In this document: positions 11,881 through 12,892 of the stretch, piece by piece
How the letters are laid out: each line of letters starts with the position of its first letter
Position numbering within the stretch: position 1 is the stretch's first letter
The notes under the pieces: model-generated
Databases searched by the model: none
What the model saw: the letters and a program-made list of their open reading frames with translations, nothing else
Told to the model about the DNA's origin: nothing
Program-made: the position numbers and the translations under genes
DNA from: a virus
IMG/VR virus record: IMGVR_UViG_3300032579_001191
Span: 1-21,707 of that record
Direction: 5' to 3' (one strand)
DNA: 21,707 bases

Positions 11881-12720
11881 TTAGAAACGATAAATCATAT
11901 TATCTTCATAAGCTCGTTCATGATTGACATGAGCCTGAATGGTGACACGCTCAAAACCGCCTAGCCTTTGCCAATCGTCATTATTTAGTTGTTTGAGATA
12001 ATCCAAATAATCCATTAGCTCGGACTTGGTCGAACTAAAGAAAATATAGGGCGGACGGGTCAAACTCATTAAATATAAAAAATCGACCATCGCAAAATAT
12101 TTTTCTTGCTTATACGCCCCTTGCCCTGTGTAAAGATAAGGTGGGTCTAGCAAAAATAGGGTTTTTGGCTGGTCTTTATATCTTGCCATTAGCGTTGTAT
12201 AGGATTCTGTCGTGACAACCAATCCATCCAAATAGCCAGTTGCTTGCTCATAGGGGCTACGACGTACGGTGTTATAAAAAGTGTTGCTATATAATTCATC
12301 AAGTGTGCGGACTTGCTTCCCACTAAACAATAACCAGTTTGCTACGCTATGCACATCAATAAATCCATCAAAGGATTTGATGATACCAATAACCACTTCT
12401 TTGTCATTTTGCGATAATGCTTTTTGCCGTGGCAAATGTTCAATGGCACTATAAATTTGTTGGCGTAGTCGCTCGGTATCCTCGATATAATTAAGGCGGT
12501 CAACATAGCCATCAAAATCGTTGTAAACCACTGTGGCTTTTGGTAGTAAATGCTTGGCGTTATGAGCGAGTAAGCCACTGCCACCGAACACATCTACCAC
12601 TGTCCAACCCTCACCGTCATCAATAATATTGGCGTTAATAATATGGCGAAATGCTTTAATAAAATTACGTTTTTGCCCAATAAATGATAGCGGGGCTTTA
12701 CTATAGGGAATTTTTGTCAT
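11881..12720 (-). CDS. DNA adenine methyltransferase, D12 (Dam-like) class
   Basis: The ATG at 12720 is preferred (279 residues): AAAGGA lies about eight bases upstream, and similarity starts with PYSKAPLSFIGQKRNF (the FxGxK motif, residues 12-18). An upstream frame extension to 12783 exists but lies wholly inside the Com-like gene. FGGSG (residues 45-49) is the AdoMet-binding turn and LLDPPYLY (DPPY 192-195) the catalytic motif of N6-adenine methylases. It is expected to methylate phage or host DNA, protecting against restriction; the target site cannot be read from sequence. The start lies within the last codons of the Com-like gene, copying the com-mom layout of phage Mu, and its ribosome-binding site can be hidden by a stem. 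Confidence 0.9.
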   Translation of the reverse strand: MTKIPYSKAPLSFIGQKRNFIKAFRHIINANIIDDGEGWTVVDVFGGSGLLAHNAKHLLPKATVVYNDFDGYVDRLNYIEDTERLRQQIYSAIEHLPRQKALSQNDKEVVIGIIKSFDGFIDVHSVANWLLFSGKQVRTLDELYSNTFYNTVRRSPYEQATGYLDGLVVTTESYTTLMARYKDQPKTLFLLDPPYLYTGQGAYKQEKYFAMVDFLYLMSLTRPPYIFFSSTKSELMDYLDYLKQLNNDDWQRLGGFERVTIQAHVNHERAYEDNMIYRF

Positions 12721-12892
12721 GACTGCGTCCTTTGGATTGATTAAGGCGTTCTGGACGCTCATGGTTTGGACGCTCGATGGCATTCTTGAAAGTATTTAAA
12801 GTCTTGCATCGTGGACATTTAACGGCGACCACTGCCTCACCAGTCATGCGAAAAAGTAATTTTTCGCAGACATTGCAACGATAATCTTGCAT
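12701..12892 (-). CDS. com: Com-like zinc-finger translational regulator
   Basis: Protein of 63 residues, MQDYRCNVCEKLLFRM at the N-terminus, with a four-cysteine finger (C6, C9, C26, C29; RCNVCEKLLF ... VKCPRCKTLN) followed by a basic, polar tail. This is the Com family of Mu and Mu-like prophages; Mu Com is 62 residues with the same RCxxCxKLLF and IRCPRCK signatures. In Mu, Com binds mom mRNA and melts a stem that blocks its translation. Here the next gene is an adenine methylase rather than mom, and its start lies inside the com end. The start has AAGGAA upstream. It follows tail completion gene S by 8 bp. Confidence 0.88.
   Translation of the reverse strand: MQDYRCNVCEKLLFRMTGEAVVAVKCPRCKTLNTFKNAIERPNHERPERLNQSKGRSHDKNSL
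12725..12773 (-). promoter_or_regulatory. Candidate translation-inhibitory stem hiding the methylase ribosome-binding site
   Basis: In the com-methylase mRNA, GGACGC (12725-12730) includes part of the methylase AAAGGA signal. It is complementary to GCGTCC at 12753-12758 (22-nt loop) and to a second copy at 12768-12773; both lie in a tandem GAGCGTCCA motif coding ERP in Com. Either 6-bp GC-rich stem would block initiation at 12720. Confidence 0.5.

Follow-up and report, generated by a model that had tools for sequence, protein, structure and literature searches.

A probable Com translational-control cassette with tandem hairpins ahead of a Hia5-like DNA adenine methylase gene in a P2-like phage or prophage

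How is a DNA methylase gene controlled when its start codon lies inside the gene of a Com-like regulator, behind a repeated sequence complementary to its own ribosome-binding site? The question is raised by a viral DNA of 21,707 nt (positions 1 to 21,707 of IMG/VR record IMGVR_UViG_3300032579_001191; hereafter the window), whose relevant features are as follows.

11881-12720, minus strand: DNA adenine methylase, 279 aa, DPPY motif, Hia5-like (Pfam MethyltransfD12; ATG at 12720)
12701-12892, minus strand: com, encoding a 63-aa CxxC...CxxC zinc-ribbon translational regulator (Pfam Zn_ribbon_Com, E = 4e-7; PHROG gpCom)
12725-12733, minus strand: methylase Shine-Dalgarno (SD) region, AAAGGACGC
12745-12760, minus strand: predicted Com site 2 (proximal), pentaloop hairpin GA-GCGU-CCAGA-ACGC-C
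12753-12763, minus strand: proximal masking arm CAUGAGCGUCC, the 5' arm plus loop of hairpin 2, which pairs with GGACGC-AG-UCAUG over SD and start
12759-12769, minus strand: 11-nt linker joining hairpins 1 and 2, with a CC that belongs to the distal anti-SD
12768-12773, minus strand: distal anti-SD GCGUCC, the 3' arm of hairpin 1 plus the linker CC, which pairs with 12730-12725 (P 0.17-0.41)
12769-12785, minus strand: predicted Com site 1 (distal), Mu-type hexaloop hairpin GA-AUGC-CAUCGA-GCGU-C

We assigned to the Com family short proteins with two CxxC pairs and a score above the curated cut-off. The window protein, whose four cysteines are each invariant among relatives, scores 29.8 bits against the 22.9 set for Zn_ribbon_Com (PF10122), bearing out its initial description as Com-like. 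As in a Mu-type operon, com (12892-12701) stands upstream of and overlaps a DNA-modification gene: the methylase ATG (12720-12718) lies within com, whose stop codon occupies 12703-12701, an overlap of 20 nt. The longest methylase frame (11881-12783) opens at ATG 12783, inside Com site 1, and automatic annotation may pick this unlikely start. It is unsupported; ATG 12720 is the best choice, with an AAAGGA signal 7 nt 5' of it and homologue alignments that begin there.

The methylase (motif LLDPPYLYTG) is 49% identical over 275 aa to a com-linked enzyme of Haemophilus aegyptius and 78-99% identical to its close viral relatives; homology and the DPPY motif place it among the Hia5-like enzymes. 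Viral homologues at 33-41% identity (L005-L046) have no com upstream, and no solved structure matches the methylase sequence. The downstream gene belongs to MethyltransfD12 and falls outside the Mom family (PF25680); the cassette would resemble com-mom in its working, yet it is not a Mom system. Hia5 methylates adenine with little sequence specificity. It has been employed as a non-specific adenine methylase (PMC11952428). Because the neighbouring genes are P2-like tail genes (GpR, tail S, baseplate V and J) and a gpP-type terminase, the element looks like a P2-like phage or prophage rather than a Mu-like one.

The repeat GAGCGTCCA occurs at 12775-12767 and 12760-12752 (minus strand), each time in the com frame as E-R-P. 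GCGTCC, the complement of GGACGC at 12730-12725, accordingly stands at 12773-12768 and 12758-12753, 38 and 23 positions upstream. The initial annotation had located the methylase start, the repeats and this complementarity correctly, and had read the repeats as tandem anti-SD copies. The anti-SD complementarity is real, but the copies appear to be chiefly parts of two Com-recognition hairpins, each GAGCGTCC supplying one half of a predicted Com site. Four GA..CC cores are present because two bipartite sites lie in tandem, and two of these cores make up the repeat first noticed.

Both predicted hairpins match the motif selected in vitro with a Haemophilus Com. SELEX on the H. sputorum protein gave the consensus NGAGNNCC(N)2-3GAGNNCCNN, in which Com protects the loop GA (PMC6483171), and the bipartite GAGNNCC(N)2-3GAGNNCC hairpin of that work (Nowacka et al. 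2019, PMC6483171) is the natural motif found here; the SELEX ligand is an in vitro product, and that study did not extend to natural homologous sites or tandem copies. Site 1 is also nearly identical to the Mu hairpin, GA-AUGC-CUGCGA-GCAU-C. As in Mu com-mom, a zinc-ribbon Com overlaps the modification gene, a Com-recognition hairpin with the loop C-N2-3-GA precedes the downstream start, and RNA is predicted to cover the start region. Mu differs in combining a single strict Com hairpin with a second stem, CCCAC/GUGGG, that contains its GUG start, whereas in the window the arms of the two hairpins also serve as the predicted masking strands, and the cargo is an adenine methylase, not Mom.

To place these hairpins in the family, com loci were gathered from viral contigs, named phages and genomes (110 non-redundant loci) and searched for GA-N4-C-N(2-3)-GA-N4'-C, a 4-bp stem on a C-N2-3-GA loop. 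The strict motif is present in 78 of the 110; 13 of the 32 loci that lack it precede an ORF called methylase-like by a loose motif. Among 58 test loci that had no part in framing the motif, 34 carry a perfect hairpin (200 dinucleotide shuffles: mean 0.8, maximum 3); the runner-up among 64 loop patterns yields only 3 matches. A second batch gives 31 of 39, or 30 of 38 strictly new loci once the window, present through re-clustering, is removed. The third set comprises seven named phages, several of them near relatives (D108, a near-copy of Mu, is not counted): AP3, Smp131, JD024 and Mana have two hairpins each, and KS5, DVM-2008 and TJ1 one each. With no stem demanded, four pairs flank 108 of 521 C..GA loops; sliding the partner by 1-3 nt leaves 0-11 such loops. 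Pair counts on 73 distinct hairpins show 97.8% paired cells (72.3% shuffled), 110 two-sided changes (32 shuffled) and a covariation of 0.82 (0.28 shuffled; slid controls ≤0.19), although these 73 were picked for pairing, and the 58- and 39-locus batches and the slid-partner loop test are less biased. The flanking G, A and C, outside the selection criterion, are ~90% conserved. A search of Rfam at E ≤ 1 matched no family. By itself, the 111-nt region folds at an energy only weakly below that of shuffles (z = -1.5), and this was dropped as evidence; it is the comparative tests that exclude chance for the predicted pairing.

Two hairpins are found in 30 of the 110 loci, separated by a 9-nt linker in 24 of these and by 11 nt in the window, L053 and L054. 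With start codons of relatives picked by rule, the last hairpin ends a median of 22 nt (quartiles 19-24) ahead of the downstream start. In many loci with one hairpin (Mu, Pasteurellaceae) a separate covarying stem such as CCCAC:GUGGG or GCCAUAG:CUAUGGC contains the start codon, and in these stems own partners pair at -8.6 kcal/mol and swapped ones at -5.8. In two-hairpin loci the SD pairs chiefly with the linker (mean 0.44), at -8.65 for own against -5.71 for swapped partners. None of 20,000 permutations reached the observed value in either comparison, with p-values that are optimistic because the permuted loci are related and non-independent. The masking strands differ from locus to locus: GCGUCC:GGACGC in the window, CGUCCAA:UUGGACG in L053, GCGUCCUUGU:ACGAGGAUGC in L054 and CUUACCUG:CAGGUAAG in Acinetobacter. 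The letters of the GCGTCC/GGACGC pair, whose covariation in homologues was proposed at the outset as a check, are not conserved, but masking persists through other complements (L053, Acinetobacter). The latter of the two start-codon stems quoted above, GCCAUAG:CUAUGGC, is that of Haemophilus aegyptius NCTC8502 (L112), where it accompanies a Com hairpin in the leader of a Hia5-like methylase, a family now in use as a chromatin-mapping reagent.

Does the window RNA hide its methylase start? Folding predicts both of the alternative stems over the ribosome-binding site that the initial annotation had envisaged. The distal and proximal pairings have P = 0.41 and 0.59 in the local fold and 0.17 and 0.75 in the whole com-methylase fold, and the proximal stem can be extended to CAUGA:UCAUG, covering the start codon too. 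Across two-hairpin loci, opening SD plus AUG costs 8.2 kcal/mol against 4.4 (maximum 4.98) in controls with everything but the elements shuffled, and forcing the hairpins cuts this cost by 1.6 against 0.2. Raw SD pairing probability is not above the shuffled control (0.58 vs 0.60); the excess is seen only in the SD-plus-start opening cost.

In the local fold of the window, opening costs 8.1 kcal/mol when neither hairpin is imposed; hairpin 1 alone brings this to 7.8, hairpin 2 alone to 7.7, and the two together to 1.9. With one hairpin the start is predicted to stay closed, since the anti-SD copy left over can stand in for the one sequestered. This two-site behaviour, and with it the Mu-like masking of the downstream start, holds in contexts to ~110 nt upstream and is weaker in longer folds (for example 4.5/6.1/7.7/3.4). 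A graded off state had been suggested for the two stems; folding points elsewhere, towards local folds that resemble an AND gate, and the two-site switch of the window is a prediction from them. L054 follows the same trend; for L053 most of the drop in cost comes from hairpin 1 by itself. When the hairpins are forced in the Acinetobacter relatives, start and SD stay closed in most of them, so that Com would there have to act differently, on the linker or otherwise.

Several other readings of the repeat have to be weighed against a Com operator. It might be kept for the Com tail (ERP...ERPER) with RNA pairing incidental, and both window copies are indeed in frame as ERP, with E-[HR]-P at that position in Mu and some relatives. 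The hairpins, however, fall in two reading phases of com (45 and 39) and beyond its stop (22), so that it is RNA and not protein that is conserved; in L047 the same nucleotides encode SVKNA in another phase, and in Pasteurellaceae com ends before the hairpin. We rejected protein-level conservation on these grounds and give it hardly any credence. ERP codons kept with the pairing lost, the outcome that the initial annotation had set against its own proposal, did not occur. Another reading makes Com protein minor and has methylase translation coupled mainly to that of com, by ribosomes crossing or terminating in the overlap. The 20-nt overlap is in its favour, as ribosomes translating com would melt the masking stems. 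Among relatives, however, the com stop falls anywhere between 88 nt ahead of the downstream start and 86 nt past it (s.d. 47 nt), whereas the hairpin-to-start distance is tight (19-24), and the Pasteurellaceae arrangement again runs counter to it. Termination-reinitiation was rejected as the conserved mechanism, the com stop position not being conserved, and coupling as the main control is unlikely, if the least so of these alternatives.

A slightly smaller chance attaches to anti-SD masking acting alone, with the GCGTCC copies duplicating an anti-SD arm and the Com hairpins as by-products. In its favour, each copy complements the SD hexamer exactly and folding yields both stems, yet GA-N4-C-NN-GA-N4'-C is kept through compensatory change across loci with differing SD sequences, and in L001 the proximal copy, GCGUCU, weakens the anti-SD to wobble but keeps a legal Com loop, CUAGA. 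The hairpins could also serve mainly autoregulation, Com repressing its own message, or mRNA protection, and in most loci they do lie inside com. Against this stand their fixed distance to the downstream start, the adjoining predicted masking of that start and the known role of Mu Com as an activator (PMC6483171); we regard such a function as quite improbable, though less so than protein-level conservation.

We consider it probable that the window carries a Com translational-control cassette that drives a Hia5-like DNA adenine methylase through tandem Com hairpins in a P2-like prophage. As long as Com is absent, a stem with either upstream GCGUCC copy would hold the methylase ribosome-binding site and, in one conformer, the start codon with it. 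Each copy doubles as an arm of a predicted Com-recognition hairpin, so Com bound here to both hairpins would lock both copies away and leave the ribosome-binding site unheld. Com would thereby act as an activator rather than a repressor, with both sites required, and methylase translation would be switched on, probably late, making the phage DNA restriction-resistant. A wider claim is more tentative, and we put it at rather less than even: that the usual Com operator outside Mu and Pasteurellaceae consists of tandem hairpins about two helical turns apart, with arms or linker masking the start and two Com molecules needed as an AND switch, Mu, the textbook case, being a reduced form.

The annotations of SuMu, AP3, KS5 and Smp131 already show com preceding a DNA methylase gene where Mu has mom, and the Haemophilus enzymes are a further case, the Hia5-like member there being the 49% identical relative of the window methylase. 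The pairing of com with a non-mom modification gene, pointed out initially, is hence true but not new. A single hairpin together with a start-codon stem occurs in SuMu and Haemophilus; AP3 and Smp131, like the window, have two hairpins. In the papers found, we saw no description of the RNA control element of these com-methylase pairs, nor any paper on natural Com sites outside Mu or on tandem Com sites, most subscription literature being outside the search. As far as the searched literature shows, the family-wide tandem Com operator and the predicted two-site switch are new.

The control module is exchangeable, as had been proposed: com loci precede D12 adenine, C5-cytosine and N6/N4 methylases as well as Mom. 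A hairpin is present in 61 of 74 loci with a recognizable downstream methylase and in 17 of 36 without, as called by a loose motif. In L106 (2149-3978), L093, L110, L303 and L086, com is followed by a small protein and an ABC-ATPase/GNAT fusion, several of these loci also having a formyltransferase-like protein; this is possibly an uncharacterized DNA-modification cassette, with Com hairpins in some loci. The GenBank records of Moraxella phages Mcat3 (L047, 1329-1574) and Mcat1 (L050) have no com gene annotated, where we find a two-hairpin com before the methylase. In WOR-1/Saganbacteria (L069, L071, L072, L075, L076 and L083), Com-like zinc ribbons have no Com hairpin and directly precede a gene that by eye resembles aspartyl-tRNA synthetase, which suggests a different role. 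Near-identical com loci number 9-12 in some genomes (L117 and 11 others in Methylophaga thiooxydans, G006; nine in G377), suggesting many prophage copies or assembly duplicates.

In the literature found, detailed work on Com is essentially confined to Mu and one in vitro selection. A covarying Com operator before at least four families of DNA-modification enzymes provides a recognition rule for phage annotation, one that also catches com genes missed in GenBank and helps in asking how Com opens RNA; its tandem form predicts two-site dependence. If true, this would explain how DNA methylases that are broad in action and potentially harmful stay silent in phages until required.
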